From the NCBI GenBank assembly GCA_004347685.1, contig SLTJ01000014.1:1-50969 (forward strand): a DNA stretch of 50,969 nucleotides. The letters run 5' to 3'. The stretch comes from Clostridia bacterium (GTDB taxonomy: Bacteria; Bacillota; DSM-521; Neomoorellales; SLTJ01). The position numbers and the translations under genes were made by a program. Below, piece by piece: positions 4,240 through 14,591 of the stretch (its first letter is position 1; each line of letters starts with the position of its first letter). The notes beneath the pieces were generated by a model. That model saw only the letters and a program-made list of their open reading frames with translations. It ran no database searches and was not told the origin of the DNA.

Positions 4240-4896
4240 CTATTCCATGGTGATCAGCCCGTGTCGCAAGGCGTACTTCAGCAGTTCCAGGCGGTCGTGG
4301 ATACCCAGCTTCTCCATCAGGCGGGTGCGGTGATTGTGCACGGTATGGATGCTCAGGCAGAGGCGGTCAGCTATTTCCTTGTTGCTGTAGCCGGCAGCCA
4401 CCAATTGCAGGACTTCCCTTTCCCGGTCGCTCAGCAACTGCAGGTTGTTTCCCTGCTCCCCCTGGCGCACTCGCTCCAGATAGTCGCTTACCAGCAAGCC
4501 GGCTACCGAGGGGTGGAGATAGGATTTCCCTGCCGCTACCGTCCTGATAGCCGCCAGAACTTCGTGGTCCGGAGCGGACTTGGGCACGTACCCCAAGGCC
4601 CCGGCCTGCAAGGCCTGAAAGAAATACTCCTCGTTCTGGTGCATGGTTAGCACCAGCAACCGGATTTCCGGGCCGGCTCTGTTAATCTGCCTGGCCGCCT
4701 CCAGACCGTTTACCCCTTTGAGGCTGATGTCCAGGAGCACCACTTGGGGCCTCAGTTCCAGGGCCTTGCGTACCGCTTCGGTGCCTTCTTCGGCCTCGCC
4801 GATAACTTCCAAGTCGGGCTCGGCGTTGAGGAGCATCTTGAGGCCCGCCCGGACCACAGCGTGGTCTTCCACCAGCAGGATGGTAATGGCCGCCAT
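4240..4896 (-). CDS. NarL/LuxR-family response regulator
   Basis: A 218-residue two-domain regulator. The receiver domain (residues 1-120) has the acidic pair ED at residues 10-11, the phospho-acceptor Asp in VVLLDISL near residue 54, and the conserved Lys in GYVPKSA. The LuxR/GerE helix-turn-helix (about 150-215) contains LSDREREVLQLVAAGYSNKEIA and the recognition helix SIHTVHNHRTRLMEKLG. The ATG has GGAGGG seven bases upstream. It is divergent from the kinase at 5126, its likely partner. Its position between that kinase and the tup operon makes tungstate or anaerobic-respiration genes possible targets (inference). Confidence 0.9.
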   Translation of the reverse strand: MAAITILLVEDHAVVRAGLKMLLNAEPDLEVIGEAEEGTEAVRKALELRPQVVLLDISLKGVNGLEAARQINRAGPEIRLLVLTMHQNEEYFFQALQAGALGYVPKSAPDHEVLAAIRTVAAGKSYLHPSVAGLLVSDYLERVRQGEQGNNLQLLSDREREVLQLVAAGYSNKEIADRLCLSIHTVHNHRTRLMEKLGIHDRLELLKYALRHGLITME

Positions 4897-5125
4897 ATTT
4901 GCCCTCCGGATCGCTAGGGTTAGGCATAAAAAGATGACCGCCCGGCGCCGGCTGCCGGAAAATCTAGAGCCGGCGGCTACCGGCCCACAAGCGCCAGGTG
5001 GCCGCCCGGACCGCGATGTGACCTAAAGGAAACCGGCAGACCGCCCGGGCCCGTTCGGTAAAAGTAAGGACCTTACGGAACCCGGATAGTTATGGCGGAT
5101 GCCGTTTCGCAAAGGAGATGGTAGT

Positions 5126-6631
5126 TTGTCTATCCGCACCAAGATAATTTTCGCCTTTTCCATGCTCCTGGGCTTGATGGCCAGCCAGCTTATCATCACC
5201 ATCACCCAGGTGGGCCGTATTGCCGACATCTCCAGCCACGTTGCCGGCGAAGGTCTGACTAGCCTTACCCAGCTCAGGGACATCGAATTATCCCTGATGG
5301 AGCTGCGCCTGGCCGAGCAGTCTGCCATTCTCCCTGAAGATTTTACCCCTTCCGCGACCAACGAGCAACTCTTTTCTTCCCTTCAGCCCTATTTGCGCTC
5401 CTCCCTGCCAGCCAACGACCTGCCCGCGGGAGAAGTGACTGCCTGGCGTGCGGCGCTCTCTGCCTACCTGGAAACTCACCGGGTGCTGGCAGCCAGCCTC
5501 GCGGCCGGCGACATGGCGGCGGCCCGGCAGACCTTCACGGCCGCCCGACCGCAATTCGAGGCTCTCCTGAACGCCACCCGCTCCCTGACTGCCAGGGAAC
5601 TGGCGGCCAACCGCGGCCTGGGGAGCCTCACCACCCACCTGGCTAGTCAGACCAGGCACTTGTTCACCGCCGGCCTGATTGTTGCTACCCTGGTAGAAAT
5701 CGGCATCGGCTGGTACTTGATGCGCTCCCTCACCGCCAGCCTGGCCCGGCTGGTGGAGGGAACCCGACGGGTCGCCGCCGGGGACCTCACCCACGAGGTC
5801 TACCTGGATACCCAGGATGAGTTCTCCTATCTGGCCCGCTCCTTCAACGCCATGCTTAAGTCCCTGCGGGATACCCAGGCGGAAAACGTGAAACTGCACG
5901 TGCAGACCGTGCAAATGCAGCAGGACCAGATCAGGCTGCTGCGGGAGCAGTTCTCCCGGATCGTCAAGGCTCAGGAGGACGAACGCCAGCGAGTGGCCCG
6001 GGAACTGCACGACCAGGCCGGCCAGGCCCTCACCGCCATTCAGCTCGGGCTGGGCCGTCTGGAGAAACTGGATGACCCGGCGGCCGCCGGGAGCGAGGCC
6101 CGCGCCCTCCGCGAGCTAACCGTGCAGACCATGGAGGAAATCCGCAACCTGGCCCTGGATCTGCGGCCCAGTATCCTGGATGACCTGGGATTGGTCCCGG
6201 CCGTCCGGCAATACACGCGGGAATTCGGCCGCCGTACCGGACTGAATGTCACCTTTACCGCCGATGTCATAAAATGCCGTTTCCCAGCCGAAGTGGAGGC
6301 AGCCCTGTTCCGGGTGATCCAAGAGGCTCTCACCAACACCGTCAAGCACGCCGGGGCCACCCGGGCCAGCGTGGATATGAGGGTGGGGCCGGAGGAGTTA
6401 CAGATAACAGTAAAGGACGACGGGCGGGGATTTGACCTGGAAGAGGCCCTCCAGGCCGGCAACAAACGCAGCCTGGGCCTTTTCGGCATGCAGGAGCGGA
6501 TGACTTTGGTGGGAGGGGAACTGGCCATAGAATCTACGCCTGGGCAGGGGACCCGGGTCATCGCCACCATACCCTGGCCCGCCTACCCGGACGGGCGCCA
6601 GACCGAACCGCCGCGACTATTATCTACTTGA
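5126..6631 (+). CDS. NarX-like sensor histidine kinase
   Basis: About 501 residues. Order: first membrane segment (IIFAFSMLLGLMASQLIITI), an extracytoplasmic helical domain of about 150 residues, second membrane segment (LFTAGLIVATLVEIGIGWYL), a HAMP domain (RLVEGTRRVAAGDLTHEV...), a short coiled coil, the HisKA_3 box with phosphorylated His in RQRVARELHDQAGQ, and a HATPase domain with EALTNTVKHA (N box), DDGRGF (G1) and a final GQGTRV (G2). This is the NarX/DegS/LiaS class that pairs with LuxR-type regulators, here the divergent gene at 4240-4896. The chosen start is TTG at 5126, because GGAG lies 8 bases upstream; an ATG nine codons earlier has no good ribosome binding site. Confidence 0.88.
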   Translation: MSIRTKIIFAFSMLLGLMASQLIITITQVGRIADISSHVAGEGLTSLTQLRDIELSLMELRLAEQSAILPEDFTPSATNEQLFSSLQPYLRSSLPANDLPAGEVTAWRAALSAYLETHRVLAASLAAGDMAAARQTFTAARPQFEALLNATRSLTARELAANRGLGSLTTHLASQTRHLFTAGLIVATLVEIGIGWYLMRSLTASLARLVEGTRRVAAGDLTHEVYLDTQDEFSYLARSFNAMLKSLRDTQAENVKLHVQTVQMQQDQIRLLREQFSRIVKAQEDERQRVARELHDQAGQALTAIQLGLGRLEKLDDPAAAGSEARALRELTVQTMEEIRNLALDLRPSILDDLGLVPAVRQYTREFGRRTGLNVTFTADVIKCRFPAEVEAALFRVIQEALTNTVKHAGATRASVDMRVGPEELQITVKDDGRGFDLEEALQAGNKRSLGLFGMQERMTLVGGELAIESTPGQGTRVIATIPWPAYPDGRQTEPPRLLST

Positions 6632-8427: not shown

Positions 8428-8458
8428 AAAAAACCCCGGGATTTTGGTCCCGGGGGGC
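8428..8458 (-). terminator. Rho-independent terminator
   Basis: Minus strand CCCCGGGA-CCAAAA-TCCCGGGG, an 8-bp GC-rich stem, followed by TTTTTTGTT. It lies about 25 bases after the stop of the small membrane protein gene at 8482 and separates it from the genes further left. Confidence 0.88.
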
Positions 8459-8481: not shown

Positions 8482-8784
8482 TCATCCCACCTGTTGCCGG
8501 CTCGTGTTTTCCGGCCCGGTGTGATATACGAAAAGCAAGACGCTTACCAGCAATGCAAAGATGGCAATTGCGGCGCTGATCGCTGCCAGCTCCAAAGGCG
8601 GCCACAGGGCAATGAAGGCCAGGACCCATGCCACCAGCGCGCTCAGACTGGATAGCAGCCAGGCCAGAGTCCGCTGCTCCTCATCCTGGTGGCGCTGGTG
8701 GCGCCGCTTCTCGTTGGCCCGGCAACTAACCAAGAACACCAACAGACTAAACCCGCAGGCTGCCGTTAGCGTGGACTGCAGCAT
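8482..8784 (-). CDS. Small membrane protein (paralogue of its upstream neighbour)
   Basis: A 100-residue protein with three hydrophobic helices: residues about 4-20, 42-62 and 66-90. The helix 2/3 region ALWPPLELAAISAAIAI resembles VIWPPLDAISLVLT in the neighbouring protein at 8747-9097, so the two look like paralogues. The ATG at 8784 has GAGAGGGGGAGG just upstream and lies inside the end of that neighbour (38-base overlap), indicating a two-gene operon closed by the terminator at 8428. Function unknown. Confidence 0.62.
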   Translation of the reverse strand: MLQSTLTAACGFSLLVFLVSCRANEKRRHQRHQDEEQRTLAWLLSSLSALVAWVLAFIALWPPLELAAISAAIAIFALLVSVLLFVYHTGPENTSRQQVG

Positions 8785-9340: not shown

Positions 9341-10519
9341 TCAGGCCGAAACCTCCACATCCGACGAGTAGTACTCCTCCCCCGCCGCCTTCTGGCTCCA
9401 GGGGGGGATGATCCGGCAGACCACGGCCAGGATCACGAAGGGCAGGGCCAGGATAACCACCGCCGGCAAGACCCCTTCCAGGCCCAGGAAAGGCGGGTGG
9501 TAGGCGGTAAACCCACGCAGGCTTTTGGAGAGCATCTGCCCGCCGATCACCACGTTCCAGCGCATGCTGAAGACGCCTACCAGGATCAGGGCGGCTGAAA
9601 GCAGGGTTAGAGCCTGCCCCGACCTGCTCCCGGCCCGGCGCGCTACGGTCAGAAGCACCAGGGGCACGACGGCCCCCAAGGCCAACTGCAGCCCGAAAAA
9701 GGTCACCGGCAGGTAAGCGGTGAGAAGCTGGTAAATGACCGGCCAGGCTTCCTCAGCCTCATACATCTTGCTGATGACCTCCAATACCTCCAGACAAACG
9801 TCCAGGATCAGGAAGTACCAAAGGTACTTATTCAAAGACATCAGGCACTGGTGGTCAACCGCTTCCTTTCGCCGCCAGCAGGTAACGGCATAAACCAGCA
9901 TCAGCAGAGCCATGCCCGAGACGATAGCTGAAAGGAGAAAGATTACCGGCTGCAGAGGCGTTGACCACCACGGGTTGGCCTTGATCGCCCCGAAGATGAA
10001 CCCCACGTAGCCGTGGAGAAAGGCCGCCGCGGGAATGCCGATGCTGGCCAGTACCGTGGTGAGGCGGTGATCCTGTTCCAGGGTGCGTGGCGAGGTATCC
10101 CAGGCCCCCAGGCTGAGGACAGTGTATCCAAGCCGGGCGATCCCGCGGCTGCTCCGGGCGTGGGCGACAATATCCGACCGGAAGATAAACCAGATTTCCA
10201 GCAGCAAGATTACCATATAGAAGGAGTAAATATACCCGAAACCGGCCATGGCCGAGGTGGGGTTGGGCGTCCACATGATCTCCAGCCCCCGGACCGGCTG
10301 CCCCAGGTGCAGCAGCAGGGGCATGGGCGCCACGATCAAGAAGGACAGGGCGGTTACCAGGGCCAGCCTGCCCACCGGGGCCAGTTGCCTTCGGTTAAAG
10401 ACGTGGTACAGGGCTGAAACGATGAAGGCCCCGGCCACCAGGCCGGTTATGTAAGGGTAAAGGACAATAAGGAGGCTCCAGTTGATTTCCATTTCATTGG
10501 GGAAAACAAAGCCTGACAT
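9341..10519 (-). CDS. NrfD/PsrC-type membrane subunit (quinone-interacting)
   Basis: A 392-residue integral membrane protein with about ten hydrophobic helices, of the NrfD/PsrC/DsrP/HmcC family, which exchanges electrons between the menaquinone pool and a periplasmic Fe-S/cytochrome partner. Family-like segments include LLLHLGQPVRGLEI, PAAAFLHGYVGFIFGAIKAN and MRWNVVIGGQMLSKSLRGF. Its ATG overlaps the stop of the Fe-S gene (TAATG). It is the last gene of the tetraheme cytochrome / Fe-S / NrfD operon. The arrangement resembles the J-O-P part of DsrMKJOP or NrfBCD modules, but no catalytic subunit lies next to it, so the electron acceptor is unknown. Confidence 0.88.
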   Translation of the reverse strand: MSGFVFPNEMEINWSLLIVLYPYITGLVAGAFIVSALYHVFNRRQLAPVGRLALVTALSFLIVAPMPLLLHLGQPVRGLEIMWTPNPTSAMAGFGYIYSFYMVILLLEIWFIFRSDIVAHARSSRGIARLGYTVLSLGAWDTSPRTLEQDHRLTTVLASIGIPAAAFLHGYVGFIFGAIKANPWWSTPLQPVIFLLSAIVSGMALLMLVYAVTCWRRKEAVDHQCLMSLNKYLWYFLILDVCLEVLEVISKMYEAEEAWPVIYQLLTAYLPVTFFGLQLALGAVVPLVLLTVARRAGSRSGQALTLLSAALILVGVFSMRWNVVIGGQMLSKSLRGFTAYHPPFLGLEGVLPAVVILALPFVILAVVCRIIPPWSQKAAGEEYYSSDVEVSA

Positions 10520-11301
10520 TAAATCACCACCCTATCCAAGGCAAGATAATACACCTGCGGCTCGGTACCCATGGCCGGCTTCAAGACGTTGCTTGGCTGC
10601 TCCTCCAGGATCTTTTTCACCGCACTGTCCGGCGCCTTCAGATCGCCAAACTGGCGCGCCCCGGTGGGACAGGTCTGGACGCAGGCCGGCAGCAGCCCCT
10701 TGGTGATGCGGTGATAGCACCAGGTACACTTGTCGGCCACATGCAGTTCCGGGTGGAGGAACCTGGCCCCGTAAGGGCAGGCCTGGATGCAGTAGCGGCA
10801 ACCGATACACCTCTCCCGGTCCACCAGCACCACGCCGTCACCGGTCTGGTAGGTGGCGGCCACTGGGCAGACCTTGACACAGGGCGGCTTTTCGCACTGG
10901 TTACAAAGTTTCGGGACAAAAAACGCCTTGCTCATTTCTCCGGTAACCTTCGTTTCGGCAAACCCGTCCTGGCCCCCGTGAGGCGAAATCACTTCCGTCC
11001 GGCCGTCGGCCATCACGGCGTACTGTTCGACCCAGGTTCGCGTAACCTCCGCTTCCAGCGGCACGCCGTTCTCCTTTTTGCAAGCCACCACGCACCGGCC
11101 GCAGCCGATGCAGCGCCGGGTATCTACCACGAAGGCCCACTCGTGCTCCTCCCAGACCCTGGTCCAGTCCCGGGGAGCTTCTTTTCCCTGGGCCAGGGTG
11201 GTACCGGCCGGCCACACCTTACCCACAACCGTGGTGGCCACTAGGCCCCCGGCTGCCAGTTGCACCCCTTTTACCAGGAAATCCCGTCGCGACAACCTCA
11301 C
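10519..11301 (-). CDS. TAT-exported 4Fe-4S ferredoxin-type electron transfer subunit (NrfC/DsrO-like)
   Basis: A 260-residue protein with a twin-arginine signal (RLSRRDFLVKGVQLAAGG) and four cysteine clusters: CIGCGRCVVAC, CNQCEKPPCVKVC, CIGCRYCIQAC and CTWC...CVQTC. This is the usual set for four [4Fe-4S] clusters in NrfC/DsrO/HybA proteins, acting outside the membrane and passing electrons between the NrfD-like subunit and the cytochrome. It starts with GTG overlapping the cytochrome stop (GTGA). Length and cluster spacing are normal for the family. Confidence 0.92.
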   Translation of the reverse strand: MRLSRRDFLVKGVQLAAGGLVATTVVGKVWPAGTTLAQGKEAPRDWTRVWEEHEWAFVVDTRRCIGCGRCVVACKKENGVPLEAEVTRTWVEQYAVMADGRTEVISPHGGQDGFAETKVTGEMSKAFFVPKLCNQCEKPPCVKVCPVAATYQTGDGVVLVDRERCIGCRYCIQACPYGARFLHPELHVADKCTWCYHRITKGLLPACVQTCPTGARQFGDLKAPDSAVKKILEEQPSNVLKPAMGTEPQVYYLALDRVVI

Positions 11302-11786
11302 TGCTTACCCCCCATTCCTACCGGCAGCGGCCGGTGCGGGTTGTGGCAGGTGGTGCAGTCCGGCCCTGGGTTGTGCTGGGCCACGTCCACCTGCTGGACC
11401 GCCTTGGCCCTGGCCACGTTGATGTCGTGGCAGAGGGCACAAAACTCCCGGCCGGCCGGTACCTCCGGCCGCACCTGACCCGGGTTGGCAGGATGCGCCG
11501 CCGCTGGCCCGTGGCAACTTTCACAGTTAATGCCCGCATGGGGCCCGGCCGCCCAGGCCTCGTGTTTATCCTGATGGCACGCCTGGCACGTCGTGGAACC
11601 GCCGCTGAAGGCCACTTCCCTGGTCGCCCAGTCATTCACGTTCTGGCCGCGATAATAACCGTACTGGCCGAAACTGGCCGGCGTGGCCAGATCCCGGGCG
11701 ACAAAAAAGACAATTACGATGGCGACCACCAGCAAGAAAGCCCGAAACCAAGGCTGATGGTAGAACTTGAGGTGAGGTCCTGACAA
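11298..11786 (-). CDS. Membrane-anchored tetraheme c-type cytochrome
   Basis: A 162-residue protein with one N-terminal hydrophobic helix (FRAFLLVVAIVIVFFVA, probably an uncleaved anchor) and four CxxCH heme sites: CQACH, CESCH, CALCH and CTTCH. Extra histidines (PHAGIN, DKHEAW, NPH) can serve as second axial ligands, as in NrfH/NapC- or cytochrome c3-like proteins. The start is probably TTG at 11786 behind a weak AAGGGGG. It is first in the operon; the Fe-S and NrfD-like genes follow with 4-base and 1-base overlaps. It would link the menaquinone-facing NrfD subunit to a periplasmic partner. That partner is not encoded here. Confidence 0.9.
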   Translation of the reverse strand: MSGPHLKFYHQPWFRAFLLVVAIVIVFFVARDLATPASFGQYGYYRGQNVNDWATREVAFSGGSTTCQACHQDKHEAWAAGPHAGINCESCHGPAAAHPANPGQVRPEVPAGREFCALCHDINVARAKAVQQVDVAQHNPGPDCTTCHNPHRPLPVGMGGKQ

Positions 11787-11890
11787 TTACACTGGCCCCC
11801 TTTTCCCGCTCCTTTGTTACTGCGTCTGCACCATCTACCGGTACAAAATCCCCAAAAAGATTACCGCCAGGCCTGGCTCTTGTAGTGTCC

Positions 11891-11941
11891 ATTATATCCG
11901 TCTATCACAGCCCTGGCAGGTGTGTAACGTCCCTACATTAC
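11891..11941 (-). promoter_or_regulatory. Promoter and dyad operator of the cytochrome/Fe-S/NrfD operon
   Basis: Minus strand CTGCCA (11914-11919), 17-base spacer, TATAAT (11891-11896). The -35 is weak, as for activator-dependent promoters. Just upstream lies the dyad GTAATGT-AGGG-ACGTTAC (11924-11941), 7-base arms with one mismatch, centred near -48, a usual activator position for NarL/LuxR-type regulators. The response regulator at 12368-13021 is the obvious candidate (inference). Confidence 0.6.
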
Positions 11942-12063
11942 CAGGCTCTTTGCCCTTAACCTCATCTCAATTTGCGGGGCGCTGGGTATGATTGTGGTAG
12001 GATTTAGATAACAAGAAAATAGGGTAGGTGTCCTGGCGCGTAAGGCCATTTGCCCCATACCCG

Positions 12064-12140
12064 CGTGGGAGGTGGGGGGTGGGAAGTGCGAAGTGGGAAG
12101 TGGGAGGTTGGAGGTTGGAGGTTGGAGGTTGGAGGTTAGC
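12064..12140. repeat. G-rich heptanucleotide tandem repeat (11 units)
   Basis: Eleven units in perfect 7-base register: CGTGGGA, GGTGGGG, GGTGGGA, AGTGCGA, AGTGGGA, AGTGGGA, four GGTTGGA and GGTTAGC. The plus strand is strongly G-rich. The same 7-mer theme recurs at 14592-14611 and 19490-19517. It lies in the gap between the response regulator and the cytochrome operon. Confidence 0.9.
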
Positions 12141-12195
12141 GGGTGACGGGTCAGCGTCGTGGGCGTCTGCCCAAAACCACAGCCGTGGTTGCGCC

Positions 12196-12331
12196 GTGAC
12201 TGCTCAGCCTGCCAGGCCGGTCGGATGTCTGGCGGCGAATGGCTGAAGACGCTAGCCGGGTTGTCAGGCTTCGCCAAAGTGACGGCAAGGCGGCCGATAG
12301 CGGGGTGATAGGCGATGGCCTGAGTAGTTAC
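12196..12331 (-). mobile_element. TIR element, copy 1 (MITE-like)
   Basis: 136 bases bounded by GTGACTGCTCAG and CTGAGTAGTTAC (imperfect terminal inverted repeats, two mismatches in 12). Its reverse complement is closely similar over its whole length to copies at 19810 and 24935, including CCGCCTATCAC-like, GACAACCCGGCTAGCGTCTT-like and TTCGCCGCC stretches. It encodes no protein. It starts 37 bases after the response regulator stop, on the 3' side of that gene. Confidence 0.75.
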
Positions 12332-12367
12332 GTTACGCCGGACAAAAATGCCCGCCTGGTGCTGTCG

Positions 12368-13021
12368 CTACCCCTCGAGCAGGCGCTTGTGGCGCACCGC
12401 GTAGACAGCCGCTTCGGCGCGGTTGCTCAGATTCAGCTTGCTCAAGATGTTGCTTACGTAATTCCGTACCGTCTTTTCGCTGAGATAGATAGCCCTGGCA
12501 ATCTCCCGGTTGGTTTTCCCTTCGGCCACCAGGGCCAGGACCTTCTTTTCCTGCCGGGTCAGGGTACTGAGCTCGCTTGCTTCCTCCGTTTCCGGCCTGG
12601 AGCGCATGCGCTCCAGCAGGCGCTTGGTTATCACCGGGTCCAGCACGGATTCGCCGCGCACCACCACTTCCACGGCGCGCACCAGTTCCTCATTGCCCAC
12701 CTGCTTCAGAATGTAGCCCTTGGCCCCAGCCATGATGGCTTCCATGATCAAATCCTGGTCATCATAGGAAGTAAGCATTACCACCTGCACCCCGGGAAAT
12801 TTCTCTACCAGTTCCCGGCAAACCTCAATGCCATCCTCTCCAGGCATACGGATGTCCATTATCACCACATCAGGGCTCAACCTTCCGGTCTTGGCCAGGG
12901 CCTCGGCCCCTGACCCCGCTTCGCCGACAACGGTAAACTGCGGGTACTGGGCAAACAGGGAGGTCAATCCGAGTCGCACCACTTCATGGTCGTCAACCAC
13001 CAGTATCTTGATCTTGTCCAC
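12368..13021 (-). CDS. LuxR-family response regulator (DevR/NarL type)
   Basis: A 217-residue regulator. Receiver domain: DD at residues 10-11, phospho-acceptor Asp in VVIMDIRMPGEDG (about residue 55), Thr in VVMLTSYDD and Lys in GYILKQVG. Output domain: LTRQEKKVLALVAEGKTNREIA followed by the recognition helix SEKTVRNYVSNILSKLNL, typical of DevR/DosR and VraR-like proteins. It follows its kinase (13121-14569) after a 99-base gap, so they probably form one operon. The cytochrome/NrfD operon downstream, with a dyad before its promoter, is the likely target. Confidence 0.9.
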   Translation of the reverse strand: MDKIKILVVDDHEVVRLGLTSLFAQYPQFTVVGEAGSGAEALAKTGRLSPDVVIMDIRMPGEDGIEVCRELVEKFPGVQVVMLTSYDDQDLIMEAIMAGAKGYILKQVGNEELVRAVEVVVRGESVLDPVITKRLLERMRSRPETEEASELSTLTRQEKKVLALVAEGKTNREIARAIYLSEKTVRNYVSNILSKLNLSNRAEAAVYAVRHKRLLEG

Positions 13022-13120: not shown

Positions 13121-14569
13121 TTATGCATTTGTCCCAGCCACCCGGATCCCGGTCTCAGAGCGGACCAGAGCCGTTACGGGAACGGCTACCTCTACCCGGG
13201 TGCCTTGGCCAGGGGAACTGGCCAGGTGAAACTGGCCTCCGAGCAGCTTGGCCCGCTCCTCCATGAAGCGGAGGCCGAAGTGGTCCCTGACGTTCGGATT
13301 ATATACGAAGCCCTTGCCGTCGTCCTCGATCGTAACCCGCAGGTTACTTTCGTCCACCCGCAGGTGCAGGCTGATGGCCCCCGCCTGACCGTGCCTAGCC
13401 GCGTTGCTCATGGCCTCCCGGATCAAATAGTACAGGTGGGGCAGGCGGTCTTCGGCCACGTCCAGACGCCGGTCTTCCTCGTAAACCAGGCTGACTTCGA
13501 TCTTGTACGCCAGGCGGAACTCCTCCACCAGTTCCATTATCAACTCCTTTAGACCTACCTGGAACTGCGGTGGCTGCAAGTCGCTAATATAGTCGCGAAT
13601 ATTGCCCACCACCTCGTTTAGCTTGGTCATACAGTATTCGATATGACCGGTCGCGGCCTCAGGATTCTTATTGAGAAGGTGGGTGCACATCTGCAGGGTC
13701 AGGCCCACGCCGTAAATGGCCTGCAACACGCCGTCGTGCAGGTCCCGGCTGAACCGGTCGCGCTCCAACAGAATGGCCTGCTGCCGCCGGCTTTCATCCA
13801 TCCGCCGCTGGCTCTCCAGGTCAAAGACGGCCAAGATCCTGGTCATGGAAATGGCCAGGATAAAACCGACGAAGGTGCGGAATATCTGCACCGGCAGGAG
13901 TCCGTGGTCGCTCCAGAACCGGGAAAGGAGGCCGGGGAAGGGTGAGAACGAGCTGGGCTCAATGAGCAGCCCGGTAGATACTGCCATCAGCCCCAGGGCC
14001 GTCACGGTGACATACAGGTTGTGGTTGACCGCGGCGTTTTGCAGTACCCGCAGGTCAAGCCTCTGTTTCCACAAGGCCCAGGCACTGGCCACGCTGCCGG
14101 GCAAAGCCAGGAGCAGGCGAGCCATGCCCTCGTGACCCTGCAGCCAGCCCACTAGCGCCACCTGGTTGTCCAGGTAACCGGCAAAGCGCAGGAAGCTGGC
14201 CAGCCAGAGCACGAAAGGGACCATGGGGAGCCAGATCAGCCAGGGGGGACCCTCACGGGTATCCCGGAACAGCTTGACCCCAAAAAGGAAAAGGAAGAAG
14301 TAAGCCAGGGCCTGGAGGAGCCGCTGCAAGGCCACCAGCTTCCACTGGGCCGCCACCCCTATGTCCGGCACCTGCAGGGGGACAAAAACATTGCCCCACT
14401 CGCTAAAGCCATAAAGAATGCCGAAGGCCGCCAGCAGATTGAGGCTGGCCGCGAGGCGAAAAGTGCTGAAGCTGCGGTACTGCACCGCGATGGCCAGGCC
14501 CATGGTGAAAAAGGAAAGCCCGGAGACAAAGTACAGGGCAAAAAACCCCGACTGAAGGACGTCCTGCAT
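13121..14569 (-). CDS. Multi-pass sensor histidine kinase (HisKA_3)
   Basis: About 482 residues. The N-terminal half contains six to eight hydrophobic helices with little outside them, a sensor embedded in the membrane. Then comes HisKA_3 with the phosphorylated His in RDRFSRDLHDGVLQ, and a HATPase domain with EAMSNAARHG (N box), DDGKGF (G1) and GQGTRV (G2). The ATG at 14569 follows AGGTGGGT; a GTG four codons earlier is possible. It is the DegS/DevS class, partner of the LuxR-type regulator downstream. The signal is unknown; redox state of the quinone pool or membrane would suit the neighbouring respiratory operon (inference). Confidence 0.88.
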   Translation of the reverse strand: MQDVLQSGFFALYFVSGLSFFTMGLAIAVQYRSFSTFRLAASLNLLAAFGILYGFSEWGNVFVPLQVPDIGVAAQWKLVALQRLLQALAYFFLFLFGVKLFRDTREGPPWLIWLPMVPFVLWLASFLRFAGYLDNQVALVGWLQGHEGMARLLLALPGSVASAWALWKQRLDLRVLQNAAVNHNLYVTVTALGLMAVSTGLLIEPSSFSPFPGLLSRFWSDHGLLPVQIFRTFVGFILAISMTRILAVFDLESQRRMDESRRQQAILLERDRFSRDLHDGVLQAIYGVGLTLQMCTHLLNKNPEAATGHIEYCMTKLNEVVGNIRDYISDLQPPQFQVGLKELIMELVEEFRLAYKIEVSLVYEEDRRLDVAEDRLPHLYYLIREAMSNAARHGQAGAISLHLRVDESNLRVTIEDDGKGFVYNPNVRDHFGLRFMEERAKLLGGQFHLASSPGQGTRVEVAVPVTALVRSETGIRVAGTNA

Positions 14570-14591
14570 CTCGGCACCCACCTAAAATAGG

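Follow-up and report, generated by a model that had tools for sequence, protein, structure and literature searches.

As far as the accessible text of the relevant papers goes, complexes that combine a cytochrome c, an Fe-S protein and an NrfD-like membrane subunit already appear in the literature as proposed quinol:cytochrome c oxidoreductases. The NrfD/Fe-S/MHC clusters of Ca. Methanoperedens were proposed there as menaquinone:cytochrome c oxidoreductases for electron transfer to the outside, and the Geobacter complex Cbc4 (CbcSTU) was described as a menaquinol:ferricytochrome c oxidoreductase. SirCD of Shewanella can, according to the same kind of partial text, replace CymA and feed several respiratory pathways.

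We analyzed a locus of this type in a 50,969-nucleotide stretch of DNA (called the window below) from the genome of a Clostridia bacterium. Its tetraheme cytochrome, Fe-S protein and NrfD-like protein, together called the trio, probably form a menaquinol:multiheme-cytochrome oxidoreductase, which perhaps serves extracellular respiration. The clusters of Ca. Methanoperedens share its clade and its cytochrome-Fe-S-NrfD order, have an NrfD that is 56-60% identical, and are likewise without a catalytic subunit as a rule. They differ in that no kinase-regulator pair and no small membrane proteins with a WPP motif were recognized beside them, and in that most have 5-heme and 12-heme cytochromes on their flanks. 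Cbc4, likened here by its description in the accessible text, also consists of a cytochrome c, an Fe-S protein and a membrane subunit, whereas CbcU is called a b-type cytochrome in that source, unlike the NrfD of the window. SirCD, compared by description in the same way, is a quinol dehydrogenase of the Fe-S plus NrfD/PsrC type. The DsrJOP arm of DsrMKJOP has the same order of small anchored cytochrome, Fe-S protein and NrfD-like protein, but DsrJ is triheme rather than tetraheme and the window NrfD lies outside the DsrP clade.

The features of the locus are as follows.

13121..14581, minus strand: sensor histidine kinase, with a membrane sensor region of ~240 residues, HisKA_3 and HATPase_c
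12368..13021, minus strand: LuxR/NarL-type response regulator, with Response_reg and GerE
11916..11937, minus strand: conserved promoter element, probably an activator site, located with a matrix trained on relatives and with a strict pattern
11891..11896, minus strand: TATAAT -10 box, at an offset of 41 bases from the element start (41-42 in relatives)
11298..11786, minus strand: membrane-anchored tetraheme cytochrome c, with four CXXCH and one N-terminal hydrophobic stretch
10519..11301, minus strand: Tat-exported Fe-S protein, with the Tat motif RRDFL, Fer4 domains and four cysteine clusters
9341..10519, minus strand: NrfD-like integral membrane quinone-interacting subunit, assigned by PF03916, clade, fold and residues
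8747..9157, minus strand: small membrane protein 1, with an IWPP motif; start codon unsure
8482..8784, minus strand: small membrane protein 2, with an LWPP motif
8434..8455, minus strand: terminator-like hairpin of 8 pairs, 7 of them G-C, followed by TTTTTT

The trio is read in the order cytochrome, Fe-S protein, NrfD-like protein, with an overlap of 4 bases between the first two genes and of 1 base between the last two. The reading frames, strands and overlaps thus agree with the preliminary description, which had presented three coupled electron-transfer genes with a two-component system of their own; the regulator and the kinase indeed lie upstream on the same strand. Judged from the signals listed, the transcript is likely to run from the promoter at 11891 through the two small membrane protein genes 3' of the trio to the terminator at 8434. 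Neither open reading frames nor family models gave a catalytic gene between the TATAAT box and the hairpin, which bears out the earlier statement that no catalytic subunit is adjacent. Across the 51 kb window there was no other ORF with at least three CXXCH, and because the tetraheme cytochrome is its sole multiheme gene, the module is linked to no particular partner in this genome. Small membrane protein 1 had no Pfam or NCBIfam match and small membrane protein 2 no accepted family match (TMEM128 gave 20.6 bits, below the cut-off of 23.9). A further kinase/regulator pair, on opposite strands, was seen at 4240-6631, with the trio on one side and a substrate-binding-protein/transporter operon on the other.

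To collect relatives, the window NrfD was aligned with one from Thermincola, and named genomes were scanned with this alignment. Of 512 confirmed relatives the best 80 were analyzed, so counts over these 80 loci favor close kin. They came from Bacillota, Methanoperedens-type archaea, Myxococcota, Chloroflexota, Bacteroidota, Spirochaetota, Acidobacteriota, Gemmatimonadota and others, with no Geobacter locus among these best 80. Within the phylum of the window, 15 of the 398 genomes drawn carried a relative at E 1e-60 or better. The loci were scored by tblastn (ORF calling missed the NrfD frame in L105, L106, L107, L112, L114, and L123). The Fe-S gene was directly upstream of NrfD in 79 of the 80; the sequence of the remaining locus starts 38 bases ahead of the match. 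The cytochrome preceded the Fe-S gene in 77; the two further misses were L093, which starts 703 bases before the match, and L115, where a 10-heme ORF is labelled a relative. Because the same gene order is found in other genomes, the arrangement of the trio is more than chance.

A panel of 14 catalytic proteins (11 molybdoenzymes, two NrfA, and HybC) was then searched within 6 kb of these loci. Only two of the 80 gave a match, in both cases to the NrfA of the window genome, and none contained a panel molybdoenzyme in this range. Both NrfA matches come from Methanoperedens-like archaea, where they lie on the opposite strand and near a 16-heme ORF; heme motifs alone perhaps account for them. With just two matches, lacking a catalytic subunit is the norm in this family and not an anomaly. 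The earlier label of an orphan operon was therefore right about the missing subunit and wrong in presenting it as odd. Sequence of 5 kb was available to either side in 43 loci; 23 of these have another ORF with at least five CXXCH within 5 kb, and 20 are without a large multiheme neighbor. The plasmid search gave 32 records, every one below 60% identity.

The window NrfD belongs to the NrfD/PsrC-like superfamily (PF03916, 149.6 bits against a curated cut-off of 25.8), and it reached the cut-off of no NCBIfam model. The candidates rejected in this way were nitrite-reductase NrfD (TIGR03148, 68.4 bits against an equivalog cut-off of 347.6), DsrP (43.4 of 350 bits), QrcD (46.7 of 570), HmcC (20.1 of 550) and TtrC (38.6 of 314). 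HybB was rejected by both model score and tree, and for PsrC and MccD no model matched. The same six models (DsrP, QrcD, HmcC, HybB, TtrC, and nitrite-reductase NrfD) were the only NCBIfam matches of the 45 family members, in a check in which only the first member had its cut-offs displayed. A tree was built from 56 NrfD-like proteins, with no HmcC, NhcC, PsrC, MccD, QrcD, or CbcU sequences among them; the 26 family rows formed one group (support 100/99) apart from eight DsrP in another clade, HybB, E. coli NrfD and the included NrfDs that are linked to molybdoenzymes. The exact places of HybB and E. coli NrfD are unsure because both are very long branches. The phylogeny suggested in the preliminary description thus sets the window NrfD outside DsrP and E. 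coli NrfD, in a clade of its own, and HmcC fell by its model. This clade is shared with Methanoperedens and Thermincola, as seen in the NrfD clade, the Fe-S clade and the gene order.

A PDB sequence search with the window NrfD returned nothing at 0.001. Its AlphaFold2 model, built from a 45-row alignment, had a mean pLDDT of 83.9, and the closest solved fold was ActC of alternative complex III (6lod_C; Z 36.8, rmsd 3.0, 370 aligned). The next folds were ActF (Z 26.9), cytochrome bd subunits (20-23) and PsrC (21.1, 243 aligned). ActC is the closest fold, yet the identity is 15-18% and there are no complex III genes beside the trio. According to the accessible text of a 2021 study, the quinone site of E. 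coli NrfD includes Tyr21, His74, Ser92, and Tyr162; the gate residue of this protein is Arg306. Tyr21, His71, Ser89, and Tyr171 of the window align with the first four, which are four of six quinone-site residues in that text, and Arg320 aligns with the gate; all five window residues are invariant in the 45 family members. The other two quinone-site residues, Asp15 and Thr163, and several channel residues of E. coli NrfD are not kept. The subunit might translocate protons, with the ion-channel residues retained in part only.

All four heme sites of the cytochrome and further histidines are conserved in an alignment of 29 members, as is an SFGxYGxYRG motif that follows the anchor. The small cytochrome of the archaeal (Methanoperedens) members L067, L070, L083, and L086 has a CXXCH count of 3 and a first site of the form CX4CH, and therefore looks tetraheme too. 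No catalytic-enzyme model reached its cut-off with the tetraheme cytochrome, and kinship with DsrJ was rejected, the match spanning 19 columns only. In the tree of Fe-S subunits, 20 rows formed a clade of their own (100/99), with DsrO as a weakly supported sister (84/85).

The form found in the window phylum was described from 13 Bacillota regions. In 10 of them the trio has both a kinase and a regulator gene next to it; in the other three, the regulator of L183 is at the contig edge, L185 starts ~200 bases before the cytochrome, and L184 has neither gene. A decaheme (an octaheme in L181) is encoded within six genes in 10 regions and is absent in L186, L189, and L190. WPP small membrane proteins were recognized by motif in 12 regions, and L187, which has no WPP motif, nevertheless gave a 42% BLAST match. 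Complexes of this general type are known and widespread; what sets the Bacillota variant apart is the combination of a sensor pair, a promoter element, WPP proteins and, often, a decaheme. No description of this form was found in the accessible text of the literature on NrfD, Thermincola and extracellular electron transfer or of papers on Gram-positive Fe(III) reducers. Among the matches listed for NrfD and Thermincola together, there was only the Thermus scotoductus genome paper, with one mention of Thermincola in its accessible text. The mature start of PdcA, TAPEK, was absent from the 16 listed homologs of the Thermincola module-side decaheme, five of which are fragments without the N-terminus, which gives no support for identifying that decaheme as PdcA.

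Relatives of the regulator (56-65% identical) adjoin the same trio in other genomes. Upstream of the cytochrome, a matrix of 22 bases, trained on nine relatives without the window, had its second-best match in the 51 kb at 11916..11937. Joint matches, defined as a score of at least 8 plus at least five of the six TATAAT bases at offset 40-43, were present at most 500 bases upstream of the cytochrome in seven of nine held-out promoters (the window, L179, L181, L182, L188, L189, and L064; L179 is nearly identical to a training row). All seven had a perfect TATAAT at offset 41-42, and the window held one joint match, the promoter of the trio. L187 and L069 showed no joint match at the cytochrome; the joint match of L187 (near 3418, minus strand) precedes a small membrane protein gene.

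The strict pattern GGGACN5ACN24-27TATAAT, which the window helped to shape, occurred once in the 3.12 Mb genome, at the trio promoter. Over 14 module-bearing genomes it gave 13 matches versus 15 for the reversed control; five were at the trio promoter, and two of these five came from training rows. The element ends ~20 bases before TATAAT, near the place for an activator at -41, and the -35 hexamer, CTGCCA, is poor and overlaps its end. The promoter dyad of the preliminary description was not recovered: with 7-base seeds, no inverted repeat was found in 11780-12370, where the conserved non-palindromic element stands instead. Its position and conservation suggest that the adjoining regulator may bind it. 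Full-length paralogs of the kinase are encoded in the same genome on C1 (36%) and C8 (34%). The C1 paralog belongs to a kinase-regulator pair with an octaheme gene downstream, and the promoter of this gene had a best matrix score of 9.6 with no fitting TATAAT; therefore, a common regulon is not supported. The C8 paralog (L178:9525-11544) has a regulator, and no cytochrome was seen in the 14 kb examined.

In the mechanism that we propose, the NrfD-like subunit would bind menaquinol close to the outer membrane face, and electrons would pass from it to the Fe-S clusters of the exported subunit and on to the anchored tetraheme cytochrome. The latter would hand them to diffusible or wall-bound multiheme cytochromes, and the downstream acceptors may be OcwA/OmhA-like reductases of Fe(III) or minerals at the cell surface, or other outside reductases of the genome. 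The operon would be switched on by the kinase-regulator pair at an activator-dependent promoter. The choice originally offered between a remote reductase and an external acceptor holds up. Points against this reading are that the window has no multiheme gene besides the tetraheme cytochrome, that 20 of the 43 loci above have no large multiheme neighbor, that two quinone-site residues and several channel residues are lost, and that L187 and L069 lack the element at the cytochrome. In the accessible part of the Thermincola paper, moreover, a different protein, ImdcA, is proposed as the quinol oxidase.

The direction of electron flow is not fixed by sequence, and the module could run in reverse as in Qrc, from an outside donor through the tetraheme cytochrome to menaquinone; Qrc and Nhc, which have NrfD-like subunits, are listed as cytochrome c3:quinone oxidoreductases in the accessible sources. 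We consider this unlikely, since the window NrfD fails the QrcD and HmcC models and the closest functional parallels described in those sources are quinol oxidases. The chance is smaller still that the module donates electrons to a nitrite reductase encoded elsewhere, the trio replacing NrfB, NrfC and NrfD. Nitrite is a real rival partner because the genome encodes an NrfA at C19:58268-59509 (L207:8484-10034, plus strand; 412 bits) with no small NrfH-like cytochrome gene next to it, and E. coli NrfABCD has the same arm of cytochrome, Fe-S protein and NrfD. However, among the eight genomes that carry the module and reach 90% completeness or more with no more than 5% contamination, two have a full-length NrfA (>400 bits) and the other six reach at most 44 bits. 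The window NrfD also falls short of the nitrite-reductase NrfD cut-off (68 versus 348 bits), and the sensor region of the kinase has no match to a nitrate/nitrite sensor domain. It is highly improbable that the module serves one remote molybdoenzyme of the window genome as its membrane arm: some of the six PF00384 places are on other contigs without an adjoining NrfD, but those on C43, C1, C7, and C28 are accompanied by an Fe-S gene of their own, and the panel molybdoenzymes are absent within 6 kb in the 80 relatives.

A menaquinol:multiheme-cytochrome oxidoreductase of this type bears on how electrons exit the quinol pool in Gram-positive extracellular respirers, for which the Thermincola paper, in its accessible text, proposes one decaheme protein on electrochemical grounds. 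The conserved NrfD complex, which has a sensor pair and a promoter to itself and is often found beside a decaheme, offers a concrete alternative. We tentatively suggest that in Thermincola-type Gram-positive metal reducers the entry to the outside path may be this NrfD complex and not (only) a CymA-like decaheme, possibly moving protons, with a dedicated pair acting on essentially one promoter and with the WPP proteins as new accessory subunits. This would provide a first step that conserves energy and a handle for regulation, neither of which appears in the accessible text of the literature found for these organisms. Archaeal methane oxidizers and many bacterial phyla would be joined by one electron-exit module.

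The window genome is rich in cytochromes, with a CXXCH-pattern count of 357 versus 117 in the reversed control. A 10-heme protein on C11 matched 6qvm (E 1.4e-29) and 6i5b (5.7e-26), and the C1 octaheme matched 6i5b (E 2.6e-17); we take 6qvm to be OmhA and 6i5b to be OcwA, both surface reductases. A NapC-type decaheme is present on C3, and the closest homologs of the decaheme of the relatives were seen on C3 (35%) and C2 (32%), not adjacent to the module. One octaheme cytochrome (L051:17877-19283) carries a LysM domain and is a possible peptidoglycan-bound electron carrier. The NrfA-type nitrite reductase on C19 is fused to a copper-amine-oxidase-N-like domain, and the Cu_amine_oxidN1 domain was seen on several heme proteins of the genome (L050, L051, L207, L208, and L212), where it is perhaps a cell-wall or stalk module. 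A second pair of Tat Fe-S protein and NrfD is encoded on C6 (L049:8277-10455) beside a 1-heme membrane protein, with no molybdoenzyme seen adjoining, and this NrfD groups with an NrfD from a Thermincola genome.
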